Positions 22,267 through 32,213 of a stretch of 32,213 nucleotides of DNA are shown here, one piece after another. The stretch lies in NCBI GenBank assembly GCA_022827885.1, contig JAJEIP010000136.1, positions 1 through 32,213 of the forward strand. The letters are read 5' to 3'. The position numbers and the translations under genes are program-made. The stretch comes from Candidatus Poribacteria bacterium. GTDB lineage: Bacteria > Poribacteria > WGA-4E > WGA-3G. The notes beneath the pieces are model-generated. The model saw only the letters and a program-made list of their open reading frames with translations, was not told where the DNA came from and made no database searches. Every line of letters begins with the position of its first letter. The stretch's first letter is position 1.

Positions 22267-23109
22267 CTAATCCGCATTCGGTGCTGGCAGATGCACGCTC
22301 TTTAACGCGAAGGTTTGTGACAACGGTTCATCAACGGCACGATAGCGACTGTAACGATACTGGACGACCCCAACGGCGGGTGCGATCCAATAAATTGCGG
22401 GTGGACTAATTAAGAACACCGAGGGTTCTGGACTATCTCCGTAAACGACCTCTTCGTGAACGACATACGTTGTGTAACTACCAGCGGGAACGGTAACCCG
22501 CTCGTTGTCGCTCACTACATAGCGCGTGACTGTGACAGGTATTCCAGCGGTCTTCTCAAAAACCACCCACTCTTTCCCGACTTCCAATGGAAAATCCCAG
22601 AGACGGCGCGGCGGAAAATGCTTTCGGTGAGATATGCTCAGAAAACCCGGATTATCAAAATCTGGAAGGTACATGTCAAACGCGGATTCCGTCAACGCTC
22701 GATGGGTCTTAGAAAAATAGGTCGCAAAAATTGGGAACGAGAATCCGTCAAAAAATTCGGTTTCTATCCGCAAATAATACGCGTTCGCCGCTAAGTGGTC
22801 AACAGCCTCAACACTGAATTGGTCGGGTTCTCCGGTGGTCAGTTCACTGATGGTGAGTTGTCGATGCGTTGTGCCACTGATATCGCGTGTGCCTTCGACG
22901 CGCACGGTGAATTCCTGATTGGTGTCAACATTGCGGTATGTCCATGCGGAACCCGGAGCCGTTGGGAGATCGATAGCTTGGAAGCCTCTTGTTTCAGGGG
23001 GTGGGAGCGTCGTCTCGCCGTGGGGGTCAATGAGCCCTTCATCTCCACAACTACAGAGAAGCAGCAAAAAAAATATAATGGTTTTCGGTAAAAAGATCCT
23101 ACTGCGCAT
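22267..23109 (-). CDS. lipoprotein of unknown function
   Basis: 280 residues. Lipobox LCSC (Cys21) after a strong hydrophobic stretch (TIIFFLLLLCS) indicates a lipoprotein. The mature part is beta-rich: PGSAWTYRNVDTNQEFTVRV near the front and APAVGVVQYRY near the end, a pattern seen in secreted proteins that open with 'G..W.Y' and close with 'vGlvk'. GAGGAG lies 6 nt before the ATG. It is the middle gene of a three-gene leftward cluster, 28 nt after the metalloprotease. Confidence 0.8.
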   Translation of the reverse strand: MRSRIFLPKTIIFFLLLLCSCGDEGLIDPHGETTLPPPETRGFQAIDLPTAPGSAWTYRNVDTNQEFTVRVEGTRDISGTTHRQLTISELTTGEPDQFSVEAVDHLAANAYYLRIETEFFDGFSFPIFATYFSKTHRALTESAFDMYLPDFDNPGFLSISHRKHFPPRRLWDFPLEVGKEWVVFEKTAGIPVTVTRYVVSDNERVTVPAGSYTTYVVHEEVVYGDSPEPSVFLISPPAIYWIAPAVGVVQYRYSRYRAVDEPLSQTFALKSVHLPAPNAD

Positions 23110-23137: not shown

Positions 23138-25744
23138 TTACTTTATCACACTGAATTTGCCGGTGCTCTGGAATCCGTTTCCATCGGTTGCCCGGAAAAA
23201 GTATAATCCAGTGCAGACCATTTCGCCGCGTGCGTTCGTGCAGTCCCATTCGGAGGCACCCTCCAGCACTTTAATTAAGTTTCCCAAAGCATCGTAGATT
23301 TCAACGGTTAATCCCTTCGGATAGAAGGTGAGGTGTTTACCTTGTCCTGTGTAAAGCGGGTTCGGTGCGACGATGACATTTCGGTTCTGGCTGTTTGCGA
23401 CATAATTGAAGGTCCTGCCTTGCCAGATCCGAGTGCCTGTTACGCCAGCAGCGGTTTGCCCACGAATCTTATAGAGATAGATACCCGTTGCGGGAAATCC
23501 GTTTGTGCGGAGTGTTCCAAACCATCTCGTCTCGGTTGCTTGGGTCAAAAAGACGGTGTATTCATTTCTATTCGGACCCTCCACTATGAGGTGGGGTGCA
23601 GCCTGTAACGGGGATGTGCTTTGGACTTCAACATTCCACTCGCCTGTCCCGTGCGGCTGCGTCCGAATGAAGAAGGCAGGTGCTCCGCTCACGGTATCCA
23701 CACTCGGTGTGATACTGTTTGGAACGATGCTCGGTGTTCCCATAAGTCCCATCGCGTCAACAGGCACAACGGCATAGTAATAATGGAGGTCGTTCGGATC
23801 AAAGAATTCGTTGTTGACATCAATTCCGTCAAAGACGGTGGGGTCCGCGAACCGCGTTTGTGTAACATTAACACGTCCAACGATGGCTATATCGTCTTCG
23901 GGAATACCGTTGCCATCGCGGTCGGCAGCGGTGAGCACTTCATCAGGATTCTGAAAAGGCAACGGGACATCCGTTTCATTCTGTAAGATATGGCGTTTTC
24001 GCACGATTGCGATTTCTCGAATTCCCGACGGATCGTCAACAGTCCACGTCACAAGGGGTCCGTTAGAACCTTGGACGACCTGTGCATTTGAGAGCACGCC
24101 TACCGGTGGCGCGCCCGCCATATAACTGACAGAGCCCCCAAAACTCCCACCCGGAATTACGACGCGTTCAACATCGGGGTGCATATTAATTAAGATGAGC
24201 GCGATCTCCTGAATATCGCCGCCGAAATCTTTGAAGGTTATCTGTGCTTCTTGGGAACGGTGATAGGTAAACGCCTCCCTGAGTTCAGTGGTCCCATTTC
24301 GCTTCTTGACGATGAATTTGGCAGCCCATCCCCGCAAACCGGTGCCTGCGTGCCTTTGCAGTTCACTCTGAATGTTCTCCCGATCATCCGGTGCGAGGTG
24401 TTGGAGGCTGATCGGCGCGAGATCCGCACCATCGATTTTGACTGCGAATTCCGGCATAATACCTGTGGGTTGGAAAACGATATAACGTGCTGAGAAATGC
24501 TCTGGCATTGATTCCGAGTCGAAATCGGTACGAACTGGGTAACTGGCGTGGATATCGTTGGGATGAATAGCGATCGGTGGAAAGCGGTGTGCGTTTCTAT
24601 AGCCCGACATTCCGGTTGCTGTGTTCGCACGGGTATGCGTGAAATAGTTCCATACCGTGAAGGTCTTGAACGCCTCAGCCAGCGTAGTGCCGTTATTCGT
24701 AAAAACTTCGTAGAAATTGCCCATCTCGCGATAACTGCCATCGGTGGCATTCCGGTAAAATTGGCGGACGATGTCGTATCCGAACCGTTCTGACATATAC
24801 AATGCCCAGATAACGGAGCCGTATTCGTGGTCGCCGATGCGGCTATCGAGGGAAATATCGGGGATAAGAAACCAGCGGCGGAGTTGATGGATATAATAGT
24901 TATAGGAATTGGTTTCGTTGGGTTCATCGGGATCTGGGAGTGTATCGCCATCATCAATAACACCGCCATCGTAAGTCATGACTTCTATCCACGTCGCGGA
25001 CGCTTCCATGAACCATGTCGGCATGTAGGCATTATATCCGAACTGGACGCCGTGCAGGAATTCATGGGTGCAGGTTGTCTCAAGGTAACGGATCCCTTCG
25101 GCTTTTCCGACGTAATCGTAGATACGGGAGTTAATCATGAAATAGGGAGCGACGGTCAGTGCGGTGGATAAAACGCGTCCTTCAAACCAGTCTGCGGTCG
25201 TGATACCGAGTGCGGGAAAGGTAAAGAGGTAGACATCATATTTATGATTGCCCCCGTTTTGTGCTGCCCAAAAGTCGATGTAAGGGATTTTGAAGCCCAT
25301 CAGGTCGATTTGGACGTGATATGCCCGTTCCATCGCATCGGCACAGAGATCAATATAATCGGGAACGCCATTGCGCGGGTGGAAATCCTCAAGCGGTGGG
25401 GCATGCGGACCGATACGCGTGTAATGGAATCTAAAATGCGGTGTGTCGAATCTCTCTGGGAGTTCTATTTCACCGAAGAAACTCCCCGGAAGTCCGGGTC
25501 GAAGGAAAAGACCTTTCAGTTTCTGCCGATGCACAGAGGGCAAGTTTCGCCAATTCTTAGCGAGGGTGACAAAACTATCGGTTACACACTCGGTTATTTC
25601 GCTTGCGGTATATCTCGGTTTGAGATTGGCGAACTGTTGCGCCGTTTGGATCGCGCTTTGGAGTTCGGGATCCGGTGGCAGCGCGTGTGCGACAGGTAAG
25701 AATGCTATAAAGAGGGTAACGAGGGTTATAAACGATATTTTCAT
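23138..25744 (-). CDS. secreted HExxH metalloprotease with FlgD/T9SS-like C-terminal domain
   Basis: 868 residues from the ATG at 25744, chosen because a clean signal peptide begins there (MKISFITLVTLFIAFLPVAHA); the frame is open 30 codons further upstream, but there is no signal at that start. Zinc motif HEFLH (His227-His231), with FMEASATWIE (~246-254) supplying the likely third ligand; overall like the MXAN_6640-type metalloproteases. Mid-protein beta domains are followed by a C-terminal region (VIVAPNP..., VEIYDALGNLIKVL, GLYFFRATDGNG) of the FlgD-Ig/type-IX-sorting kind. It would be exported and perhaps surface-attached. First gene of the three-gene cluster. Confidence 0.85.
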   Translation of the reverse strand: MKISFITLVTLFIAFLPVAHALPPDPELQSAIQTAQQFANLKPRYTASEITECVTDSFVTLAKNWRNLPSVHRQKLKGLFLRPGLPGSFFGEIELPERFDTPHFRFHYTRIGPHAPPLEDFHPRNGVPDYIDLCADAMERAYHVQIDLMGFKIPYIDFWAAQNGGNHKYDVYLFTFPALGITTADWFEGRVLSTALTVAPYFMINSRIYDYVGKAEGIRYLETTCTHEFLHGVQFGYNAYMPTWFMEASATWIEVMTYDGGVIDDGDTLPDPDEPNETNSYNYYIHQLRRWFLIPDISLDSRIGDHEYGSVIWALYMSERFGYDIVRQFYRNATDGSYREMGNFYEVFTNNGTTLAEAFKTFTVWNYFTHTRANTATGMSGYRNAHRFPPIAIHPNDIHASYPVRTDFDSESMPEHFSARYIVFQPTGIMPEFAVKIDGADLAPISLQHLAPDDRENIQSELQRHAGTGLRGWAAKFIVKKRNGTTELREAFTYHRSQEAQITFKDFGGDIQEIALILINMHPDVERVVIPGGSFGGSVSYMAGAPPVGVLSNAQVVQGSNGPLVTWTVDDPSGIREIAIVRKRHILQNETDVPLPFQNPDEVLTAADRDGNGIPEDDIAIVGRVNVTQTRFADPTVFDGIDVNNEFFDPNDLHYYYAVVPVDAMGLMGTPSIVPNSITPSVDTVSGAPAFFIRTQPHGTGEWNVEVQSTSPLQAAPHLIVEGPNRNEYTVFLTQATETRWFGTLRTNGFPATGIYLYKIRGQTAAGVTGTRIWQGRTFNYVANSQNRNVIVAPNPLYTGQGKHLTFYPKGLTVEIYDALGNLIKVLEGASEWDCTNARGEMVCTGLYFFRATDGNGFQSTGKFSVIK

Positions 25745-25960
25745 ATTTTTAACGATTGGGTTTTCGATCGGTTTTTGCTGATGAACAGATACCCTCACCT
25801 CTTTAGATCGGTGCGGTTGGAATGCAGATCGCATGAATCAACGGTATGAAGGTTCTCCGTGTGGCATTCCAAATCAACGGTATGAAGCCCGTGTGGGCTT
25901 CACCGGGGGCGAGTACGCCGCAAAACCGCACCTACCTCGGTTGAGGATCGACCTAAGTTG
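25745..25960. repeat. intergenic gap with direct repeat and hairpins
   Basis: AATCAACGGTATGAAG occurs twice (about 25836-25851 and 25872-25887). A perfect 7-bp stem GAAGCCC/GGGCTTC around GTGT lies at 25884-25901, then GGCG/CGCC (25908-25919) and ACCGCACCTACC, the tail seen in the purB-upstream cluster. Confidence 0.65.
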
Positions 25961-26573: not shown

Positions 26574-27356
26574 TTAGCGCGTTTTGAGGGCACCCCATGT
26601 GAGCGCGAGTTTCCCTGCCGGTTCAACATCAAAGGCGATCTGGTAATTTTCCATGACCTCTTTTTTATCTAAGGCACGATGATAGACAGCGACATCGTCA
26701 ATCAGGCCGTCAAAATAGAACGGTTTGATAAAGGCGTTACGGTCGTGTCCGACTGCAACAACAACATGGCTACGCGTGTCGCGACTGTTTATCTTTCCAT
26801 CCGCCTCGGCATCGAGTTCACCGTTGATATAGAGGAACTTTTTCTCGTCCGCACCTGCAGCAACAAACGTGACGTGCGTCCATTCGCCCGCTTCGACAGC
26901 CGTCTCGGTTTTGAAAACACCGAATCCATCGCCACCTCTCTGCGTCTGTATCGTGCCATCGGCTAAGAGTTCCAGCCACGAATCGCCACCCCCCTGTGGA
27001 TCATCGTCCCAGATAATAACTTTAGGGCCCTCCGGTAGGGCTGTGGGTTTAATCCACATTGCGTAGGTAAGATCTTGCCCTGTGGTAGCGGCGCCCATGA
27101 CAACATAATCTTCTTCACCGTTAAAACTGAGTGCGTCTCCGACAATGCCTTCTACAATTTTCGGGGCACCCTTAATCTCCCCATCGTTTTCACCGAGAGC
27201 ATCTTTAGCGATTTTGGCATCGGTATCAGCCTTATCAAAGGTCCAATGTCCGCCTAATCCGTCTTCAAGAGATTGTGCGTGTGCTACTTCTGTATACGCG
27301 GACGCGAAAACAATGACTGCCGCGCAGAAGAGCGTAAAGAATAAATCAAGTTTCAT
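26574..27356 (-). CDS. secreted LamG-domain protein with C-terminal KLATTW-type motif
   Basis: 260 residues from the ATG at 27356, chosen for AGGAGG 7 nt upstream and the signal peptide (MKLDLFFTLF...AHA). A concanavalin-like LamG/laminin G-3 domain fills most of it: GGHWTFDKADTDAKIAKDA, LSFNGEEDYVVMG, MWIKPTALPEG, and GLIDDVAVYHRALDKKEV. Such domains bind glycans or mediate adhesion. The last 18 residues include VEPAGKLALTWGALK, nearly the same ending as the neighbouring carbohydrate-binding protein. It has its own promoter. Confidence 0.9.
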   Translation of the reverse strand: MKLDLFFTLFCAAVIVFASAYTEVAHAQSLEDGLGGHWTFDKADTDAKIAKDALGENDGEIKGAPKIVEGIVGDALSFNGEEDYVVMGAATTGQDLTYAMWIKPTALPEGPKVIIWDDDPQGGGDSWLELLADGTIQTQRGGDGFGVFKTETAVEAGEWTHVTFVAAGADEKKFLYINGELDAEADGKINSRDTRSHVVVAVGHDRNAFIKPFYFDGLIDDVAVYHRALDKKEVMENYQIAFDVEPAGKLALTWGALKTR

Positions 27357-27449
27357 CGGTTCACCTCCTGGGTTTGTAAACCCATGATGTGCAATGTGTT
27401 CTTCTGGTAGAAGCAAAGTGCTTACCACTTTTATTTAACCCTGGCGTAT

Positions 27450-27478
27450 ATTATATATCGTTTTGGCGGTATATGCAA
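27450..27478 (-). promoter_or_regulatory. predicted promoter for the LamG gene
   Basis: Leftward -35 TTGCAT (27473-27478), 17-bp spacer, perfect -10 TATAAT (27450-27455). Transcription would begin about 90 nt before the ATG. Confidence 0.6.
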
Positions 27479-27563
27479 GGGAAACCTCTCTTTGGTCCAA
27501 AGCCTTTCAGTTACTGGAGATATGTCAGTGAAGAAGAGATACGTCACGATCAGAAGAGCGTTT

Positions 27564-28214
27564 CTACAAATCTTTGAGGGTTGCCCATGTGGTTGCCAAC
27601 TTATTGGTGGGTTCAACGGGGTGTGGTTCGGCACCTTCAATGTCGTTGACGAATTCGCCTTCATAAAGACGGATGTGGTCGAGCCAGACATCGACTTTTT
27701 GTCCGCCCATGATGATGCCGGCGCGCGAACTGACGTCATCTGCGGGCATTTTGAAGGTGATGAAGAATTCCGTCCACACCTCAGACAGATTGATTGTCTG
27801 CCGCGCGTATTCATTCCACGGGTCACCTTGATGTAGGATGCGCATGACGACAGTTCTCGGTTTTTCGCTCTTTGCCCACAAACTGTAGGTATAGGTGGTG
27901 CCTTTCTCCAGCGTGAAGGGTTGCTGGTAGAACTGGACGTGCCACACGGCATTACCTGCCTTACTGATTTTGACATAAACAACTTTTTTTCCGACGACCG
28001 GTTCGGCTTTTTTGCCCTCGATTTGGAAAAGCGTAGCGGCATCGGCGTGTGTCCAGTGGTGCCACCCTTCAAGATTGAGGTCGAAATCACCGTTGTTAAG
28101 AATGTTTTCAGGGGGTTTTGCTGCGTATGATAGGGTTGTAACCCCGAACAGCAATACTAATGTGAGGAGTGAAGTGTAATATCGTTCTGAGGTGTGATAT
28201 TGCATTAATTTCAT
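27564..28214 (-). CDS. secreted carbohydrate-binding (CBM4/9-like) protein with KLATTW-type C-terminus
   Basis: 216 residues. Signal peptide up to about residue 31 (LLTLVLLFGVTTLSYA). The mature part opens ENILNNGDFDLNLEGWHHW and continues with YTYSLWAKSEKPRTVVMRI and a closing VDVWLDHIRLYEGEF, the classic CBM4/9 beta-sandwich. It would bind polysaccharide outside the cell. The end VEPTNKLATTWATLK matches the LamG protein's end although the main domains are unrelated. AGAGG lies 7 nt before the ATG. Confidence 0.87.
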   Translation of the reverse strand: MKLMQYHTSERYYTSLLTLVLLFGVTTLSYAAKPPENILNNGDFDLNLEGWHHWTHADAATLFQIEGKKAEPVVGKKVVYVKISKAGNAVWHVQFYQQPFTLEKGTTYTYSLWAKSEKPRTVVMRILHQGDPWNEYARQTINLSEVWTEFFITFKMPADDVSSRAGIIMGGQKVDVWLDHIRLYEGEFVNDIEGAEPHPVEPTNKLATTWATLKDL

Positions 28215-28336: not shown

Positions 28337-28891
28337 TTAATTACCGCCACCTTCAGGTCCTTCGCCGTCGGCACCTTGTCCGTGTTCGCCGCCTTCAGCA
28401 CCGGCTTCGGGTCCTTCAGCCCCACCTTCACCGCTGCCGCCACTCATTGGACCGACTTCGGGATGCGCCGTCCACATGTCAAAGGGTGGACCTTCTGCCA
28501 TCAGCACAATGGGGATTTGCTCACCGGGTGCGAGGTCGATTGGTGTTGTCGGTCCGAGTTCCGCTGTTGTAGCGTCGCCTTTTGATAAATGGATTTCGAC
28601 GCGAACTTGTGGTAAAATGGCATCGGTCGTATTTTTAACAGTGCCTTTAAAGGAATTGGTGGCTGCATCGTAGTTCAGAATCAGATGTGCACCGGCTCGG
28701 ATACTATCATAAGTATCGGTAAGGGCGAGTTGCACTGCCGATTCTTCGTCACCTGCGTCAACTGTGACTGGATTTGCTGTAGCGAGATGTTCTTCTGGTC
28801 CCTCGGACGTTTCATCGCTACCTGAACATCCGATCATACTGGCTATCAATACGGAAACAATTGCTATGAGGATTCCGCAATAGGGTTTCAT
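28337..28891 (-). CDS. lipoprotein with Gly/Glu-rich tail
   Basis: 184 residues. Hydrophobic signal and lipobox IGC (Cys22), then an acidic stretch. The middle (HLILNYDAATNSFKGTVKNTTDAILPQVRVEIHLS) resembles FxLYD-type domains that pack against partners or cell-wall polymers. The last ~35 residues are low-complexity Gly/Glu/Ala (EGGAEGPEAG...). Function unknown. AAAGGAG lies before the ATG; a terminator follows. It is the last protein gene before the 5S rRNA, separated by ~200 bp. Confidence 0.8.
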   Translation of the reverse strand: MKPYCGILIAIVSVLIASMIGCSGSDETSEGPEEHLATANPVTVDAGDEESAVQLALTDTYDSIRAGAHLILNYDAATNSFKGTVKNTTDAILPQVRVEIHLSKGDATTAELGPTTPIDLAPGEQIPIVLMAEGPPFDMWTAHPEVGPMSGGSGEGGAEGPEAGAEGGEHGQGADGEGPEGGGN

Positions 28892-29100: not shown

Positions 29101-29217
29101 TCCCGGCAACGACCTACTTTCCCGCGGGGTCGCCCCCGAAGTATCATCAGCGCTGAAGGGCTTAACTACCGTGTTCGGGATGGGTACGGGTGGGTCCCCT
29201 TCGCTATAGCCACCGGA
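29101..29217 (-). rRNA. rrf: 5S ribosomal RNA
   Basis: About 117 nt. The minus strand begins TCCGGTGGCTATAGCGAAGG and contains the conserved CCCGAACACGG and GGTAGTTAAGCCC loops; ends GGTCGTTGCCGGGA, which pairs with the start. It lies about 90 bp after the 23S gene in the standard 23S-5S order. Confidence 0.97.
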
Positions 29218-29308
29218 AAACTGTTTGTATGGCTCGGTGTGATGTCCGAGCCGTTACAAGAATATTTGACAATTGTATATGTATATGAGGGGTCGGTAGA
29301 GTAAGAAA

Positions 29309-32213
<2,905 letters not shown>

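Follow-up and report, generated by a model that had tools for sequence, protein, structure and literature searches.

A short C-terminal peptide on unrelated secreted proteins is probably a phylum-wide sorting tag of Poribacteria

Marine sponges harbour abundant symbionts of the uncultured phylum Poribacteria. In one Candidatus Poribacteria genome of 5.13 Mb, two neighbouring genes encode exported proteins whose main domains differ and whose last residues look alike, which raises the question of what such a shared ending might be for. The window, that is the whole stretch of 32,213 nucleotides analysed here, is contig C101 of this genome and contains the following features:

26574..27356, minus strand: secreted LamG (Laminin_G_3) protein, 260 aa from ATG, with signal peptide MKLDLFFTLFCAAVIVFASAYTEVAHA (Pfam, AlphaFold2 model)
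26583..26633, minus strand: C-terminal tag of the LamG protein, FDVEPAGKLALTWGALK, followed by TR and the stop (tag profile E 3e-8)
27564..28214, minus strand: secreted CBM_4_9 protein, 216 aa, with an N-terminal signal peptide (Pfam)
27573..27623, minus strand: C-terminal tag of the CBM_4_9 protein, HPVEPTNKLATTWATLK, followed by DL and the stop (tag profile E 4e-8)

The LamG protein ends in VEPAGKLALTWGALK-TR (stop at 26574) and the CBM_4_9 protein in VEPTNKLATTWATLK-DL (stop at 27564), and both endings pointed out by the sequence-only reading are real, each being the motif with two residues after it. The interval that it gave for the pair, 26574-27650, takes in the whole LamG gene, for which an alternative upstream GTG start at 27428 is possible, but no more than the final part of the CBM gene, which reaches 28214. 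Its statement that the main domains are unrelated is borne out by Pfam (Laminin_G_3, E 9e-23; CBM_4_9, E 8e-20) and by BLAST, which aligns the two proteins significantly over the 15-residue tag alone (10/15 identical, E 9e-4), the next match having E 0.06. Since nothing beyond these 15 residues is significantly similar, a full-length duplication of the two genes is ruled out. The window has two matches to the motif as compared with none in 100 dinucleotide shuffles; this, together with the absence of any match to the reversed pattern in the genome, rules out a chance origin of the shared ending. Both ends of the contig are formed by rRNA genes, with the 5′ part of a 16S gene at 1-565 and 5S and 23S genes at 29101-32213 (both minus strand), which suggests that the genome has two or more rRNA operons and that the assembly broke at these.

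Searching the source genome with the DNA pattern K-L-x-x-T-W-x-x-[LI]-K gave 93 matches (reversed control 0), while a profile of the 17-residue tag gave at least 150, and almost all of these fall in open frames some 250-300 codons long. The motif had been proposed as a protein ending, a proposal that would not survive its presence at internal positions or in cytosolic proteins; in all 90 distinct ORFs read it lies 1-12 residues ahead of the stop and is never internal. Alignment of these ends yields the consensus L-[AP]-V-[ED]-[PA]-x-G-K-L-[AT]-T-T-W-[GA]-x-[LI]-K-x(1-6), in which the invariance of K, T, W and K is by construction of the search pattern; the V lies outside that pattern and is nevertheless conserved in 85/90 aligned tags. 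Conservation begins abruptly at the first residue of the tag, L, with nothing conserved upstream of it, and the last Lys is followed by an R/Q/A-rich tail, 1-6 residues long in most tagged proteins. All four codons are used at the invariant Thr (ACG 27, ACA 28, ACT 21, ACC 14), which places the constraint on the protein and not on the DNA; going by these codons, the tag is under protein-level selection. Some tags end very short frames of 35-55 codons (L010, L015, L034, L080:6066-6125 and L087:15411-15470), which are possibly degraded genes, frameshifts or contig-edge truncations.

The tagged proteins are about 270 residues long and appear to be exported. The expectation that proteins ending in the motif have signal peptides holds, as 74 of the 83 full-length tagged proteins passed a signal-peptide script, admittedly a crude one, and the other nine show a signal peptide by eye, as against 113/365 control genes from the same stretches. 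No lipobox was found in any of 97 tagged proteins. In the window, lipoprotein-like genes near the tagged pair (22267-23109 and 28337-28891, minus strand) have a lipobox-like N-terminal Cys by eye and lack the tag, consistent with the absence of a lipobox in tagged proteins. Among the 83 proteins Pfam identified Laminin_G_3 in 45 and a 3-keto-disaccharide hydrolase domain in nine, followed by CBM9, ankyrin, beta-propeller and other domains; a Kelch protein with a variant tag was also found. Large tagged proteins are rare (885-1535 aa), namely L104:2611-7215 (+), L116:4993-7647 (-) and L049:2173-5064 (-), the last with a Lamin Tail Domain, and in these the tag has the variant setting R-L-[RK]-G-x-[IV]-x-A-A-G-K-L-T-x-T-W-G-[ED]-L-K.

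With the tag removed, the 97 proteins (the CBM_4_9 gene of the window, left out by the gene caller, is not among them) fall into 26 clusters without BLAST similarity to one another, or 28-34 under stricter rules, which rules out an artefact of one domain family. The preponderance of Laminin_G_3 could be taken to mean that the tag has no function and was simply carried along as one LamG gene family recently duplicated or underwent gene conversion, but this is barely credible given at least 26 unrelated domain clusters, the sharp tag boundary, free synonymous variation and the presence of the tag in all families of the phylum. At the level of sequence, what the source genome holds is a strictly C-terminal, discrete tag carried by small, soluble proteins, well over a hundred in number, with many unrelated folds and predicted Sec export.

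Structure prediction places the tag outside the folded domain. The AlphaFold2 model of the window LamG protein, made with 17 relatives, has a mean pLDDT of 81 and its sole segment with pLDDT below 50 is residues 244-260, exactly the tag, while in a model of a 3-keto-disaccharide hydrolase-like protein (L098) the tag residues 230-247 lie at pLDDT 33-37. With values of about 33-45 across the two models, the tag is predicted to be an appended flexible peptide. The description of the ending as an independent module can be upheld, given the 26 or more BLAST-unrelated mature domains, the abrupt start of conservation and the disorder in both models. Many tagged proteins are beta-sandwiches (LamG, CBM, 3-keto-disaccharide hydrolase-like) with the tag close behind the domain, as would suit a donor strand or oligomerisation peptide, in which case one tagged protein would insert its tail into the next to build a surface polymer. 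However, ankyrin, Kelch and beta-propeller proteins, which have no common acceptor groove, are tagged as well, and both modelled beta-sandwich domains fold confidently without the tag, making such a structural tail unlikely.

Tail-specific proteases are known to read non-polar tails, and a C-terminal, unstructured peptide on exported proteins could in principle serve as a periplasmic quality-control or degradation tag for an enzyme of this kind. It would be strange, though, for such a tag to be encoded in well over a hundred genes of the source genome and retained in orthologues throughout the phylum, and its conserved W and K are unlike the non-polar tails which these proteases recognise; a role in degradation is very unlikely.

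The tag had been suspected to be specific to this lineage, and its distribution agrees. A loose pattern is present in 85/85 Poribacteria (2-111 matches per genome, against at most 2-3 for the reversed pattern), and a stricter pattern is found in 85/85 Poribacteria and, outside the phylum, in 0/302 genomes. In the 84,980 species scanned, 47 stretches matched, all 47 from Candidatus Poribacteria, this being a valid but narrow sample as the scan pattern forced a TNA codon at the [LI] position. Poribacteria with few exact matches (G009, G011) carry more tags in variant form, such as KLASTWGQMK and KMAATWADVK.

The tag is not represented by any model among those listed for the 83 tagged proteins in Pfam (all 21 families at E up to 0.001) or in NCBIfam (the first 25 of 35 families at E up to 1), and these listings contain no match to TIGR04183 or PF18962, the models of the T9SS type A CTD. 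Five common tag strings were not found in the literature searched, nor was any paper joining Poribacteria with sorting signals.

The known signals LPXTG, PEP-CTERM, PGF-CTERM, GlyGly-CTERM and MYXO-CTERM are alike in combining a motif with a transmembrane helix and a basic tail (PMC11980579). The tag has no transmembrane helix and its consensus has no Cys. Like MYXO-CTERM, which is read by myxosortase in Myxococcota, it is universal in one phylum, C-terminal and found on many Sec-exported proteins per genome; MYXO-CTERM, however, combines an invariant Cys with a transmembrane helix and, in the cytoplasm, an Arg-rich tail (PMC11980579); of these the tag lacks the first two, and it mostly has just 1-6 residues past the last Lys. 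PEP-CTERM, the exosortase signal, is likewise short and C-terminal, a region of homology shared by dozens of exported proteins with differing domains (PMC1569441), but the tag, with its mostly 1-6 residues after the last Lys, has neither the PEP motif nor the helix. GlyGly-CTERM (rhombosortase) and LPXTG (sortase) are also C-terminal signals common to unrelated exported proteins, yet both require a transmembrane helix and then basic residues, which are missing here. Exosortase (PF09721) occurs in 3/83 Poribacteria genomes and not in the source genome; systems of the PEP-CTERM/exosortase and MYXO-CTERM types are ruled out by architecture and, for the former, by this scarcity.

The closest parallel is the T9SS type A CTD (TIGR04183/PF18962), which like the tag is C-terminal, lacks a transmembrane helix, has a conserved Lys near the C-terminus and occurs on Sec-exported carriers with many cargo domains. 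It is, however, a folded beta domain of 40-80 residues, whereas the tag consists of 17 residues plus 1-6, is predicted to be disordered, lacks the GxY motif and has an invariant Trp. Even the shortest known T9SS CTDs, those of Prevotella intermedia with 40-51 aa, still have the GxY motif and the beta-sheet (PMC11969387). Alignment of the tag with poribacterial type A CTDs by hhalign found no profile similarity (probability 0.8%), and homology between the two is not supported. The tag is probably an undescribed, phylum-specific element that acts like a C-terminal sorting tag and fits no known class.

Genuine type A CTDs do occur in these bacteria, one of them on a neighbour of the tagged pair in the window:

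23138..25834, minus strand: MXAN_6640-family putative metalloprotease, whose last ~75 residues match TIGR04183 (27.8 bits, cut-off 23)

Por sorting domains have been reported from poribacterial genomes by a study that did not find the Por structural genes there (Kamke et al., 2014; PMC3909097), and a later survey placed the T9SS in Bacteroidetes only (Abby et al., 2016; PMC4793230). In the present genomes type A CTDs, canonical by alignment, are found in 83/83. A SprA_N match is present in 77/83 genomes, above its cut-off in 30, and the SprA-like proteins of about 2200 aa score 139-182 bits with TIGR04189, below the equivalog cut-off of 200. PorV (PF19572) is found in 82/83 genomes, above its cut-off in 78 (controls 0/14). 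C25 peptidases (PF01364) are also present in 82/83, often three per genome and at about 300 bits, a result that denotes membership of the C25 (PorU) family and not PorU orthology; one of them has a Propeptide_C25 domain and a FlgD_ig end. GldM_4th, of the T9SS motor protein GldM, was found in 0/83 Poribacteria, the control genomes being silent too in the same search. Judging by these matches, Poribacteria carry a T9SS-like core of SprA-like protein, PorV, C25 peptidase and type A CTDs.

In the source genome the SprA-like gene (L142:8755-15540, +) lies on contig G000:C81, as does a C25 gene (L197:4957-11277, +) directly followed by an outer-membrane barrel gene (L197:11284-12405, +) whose 374-aa product has weak PorV similarity and which is situated about 24 kb from the sprA-like gene. 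Genes resembling gyrA, gyrB and recF lie between the sprA-like gene and the C25-barrel pair.

Could this machinery read the tag? Type A CTDs are carried by PorV, which is touched by an almost invariant Lys near the CTD end (PMC10994853), and other T9SS signals have shuttles of their own (PMC12618676). The two endings differ in the size of their carriers, with a median frame of 274 aa for the tag (source genome, 150 matches) and 918 aa for the type A CTD (phylum, best 150 matches; P ~1e-40), lists that were sampled differently and include non-independent frames from related genomes. The same division is seen within one family of PA14-like carbohydrate-binding domains (up to 46% identity), where small proteins have the tag and large ones the type A CTD. 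All 32 complete small ORFs of this family, at loci from 30 genomes and largely orthologues, carry the tag. Its large members with a type A CTD are found in L081 of the source genome and L245 of another genome, the former (L081:7164-9434, +) being a secreted protein with LRR, a PA14-like carbohydrate-binding domain, dockerin type I and the CTD. As the family has one or the other according to size, a single secreted domain family can end in either tag or CTD, a sequence pattern that fits, and does not prove, a common outer-membrane route.

On G000:C81 a tagged LamG gene (L142:7708-8544, -; variant tag VSPEGRLTTVWARVK) and the sprA-like gene are divergent and 0.2 kb apart, and in G079 a tagged LamG gene is about 1.7 kb away; no tagged gene was seen in the regions read around the sprA-like genes of G009, G023, G002 and G004. 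Such proximity is not diagnostic because there is about one tag per 30 kb. PorV-like neighbourhoods showed neither tag enrichment nor consistent linkage to tagged genes. On G000:C144 (L196:12525-14299, +), a second C25 peptidase gene has a pair of tagged genes some 2 kb downstream.

These genes without a fixed neighbourhood with sprA or porV, along with a tag that resembles no T9SS signal, would suit a stand-alone, Poribacteria-specific system in which small lectin-like proteins are fixed by a non-T9SS receptor or transpeptidase to the outer membrane, to a polysaccharide coat or to an S-layer-like structure. The phylum restriction has its parallel in MYXO-CTERM, likewise confined to one phylum and served by its own dedicated enzyme (PMC11980579). 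Against this, no candidate receptor or enzyme was found, and the same genomes already hold a surface-export machine; all 85 genomes carry the tag, which leaves phylogenetic profiling within the phylum without negatives. A separate system, though less likely than not, is a strong competitor of the T9SS route.

The T9SS-like machine is the most likely reader, a tentative choice that we would place somewhat short of an even chance, and the tag would then stand in, as a minimal signal, for the ~75-residue type A CTD. The link of the tag to the SprA-like/PorV/C25 machinery is our best guess and is put forward as a candidate. In the proposed mechanism, Sec export and signal-peptide cleavage would leave the mature domain to fold in the periplasm, where a single receptor would recognise the exposed tail through V, K-L, T-W and [LI]-K. 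This receptor would move the tagged protein over the outer membrane and/or tether it at the surface. The candidate reader would comprise the SprA-like translocon, a PorV-family shuttle and a C25/PorU-type peptidase, and there may be a division of labour whereby small proteins use the tag and large ones the CTD.

That the ending is a phylum-wide C-terminal sorting tag of Poribacteria is itself quite probable from the sequences, and the suggestion of the sequence-only reading, an independent tag of this lineage for sorting, anchoring or processing, is supported as regards independence, export, position and lineage. If so, a single profile marks out what is likely to be the surface or extracellular proteome of the entire phylum. 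The tagged proteins have mostly carbohydrate-binding folds and could face the sponge matrix. It is conceivable, although we would not yet call it probable, that the tag represents a third architecture among prokaryotic C-terminal sorting signals, a short linear peptide that is neither transmembrane-tripartite nor a folded domain, with a Poribacteria-specific receptor through which each cell of these sponge symbionts would display well over a hundred lectin-like proteins. The SprA-like, PorV and C25 genes in nearly all genomes reopen the question of the missing Por structural genes (PMC3909097). Should the T9SS-like machine read the tag, it would be shorter than the T9SS signals in the literature searched; should it not, there would be a new sorting system to be identified.
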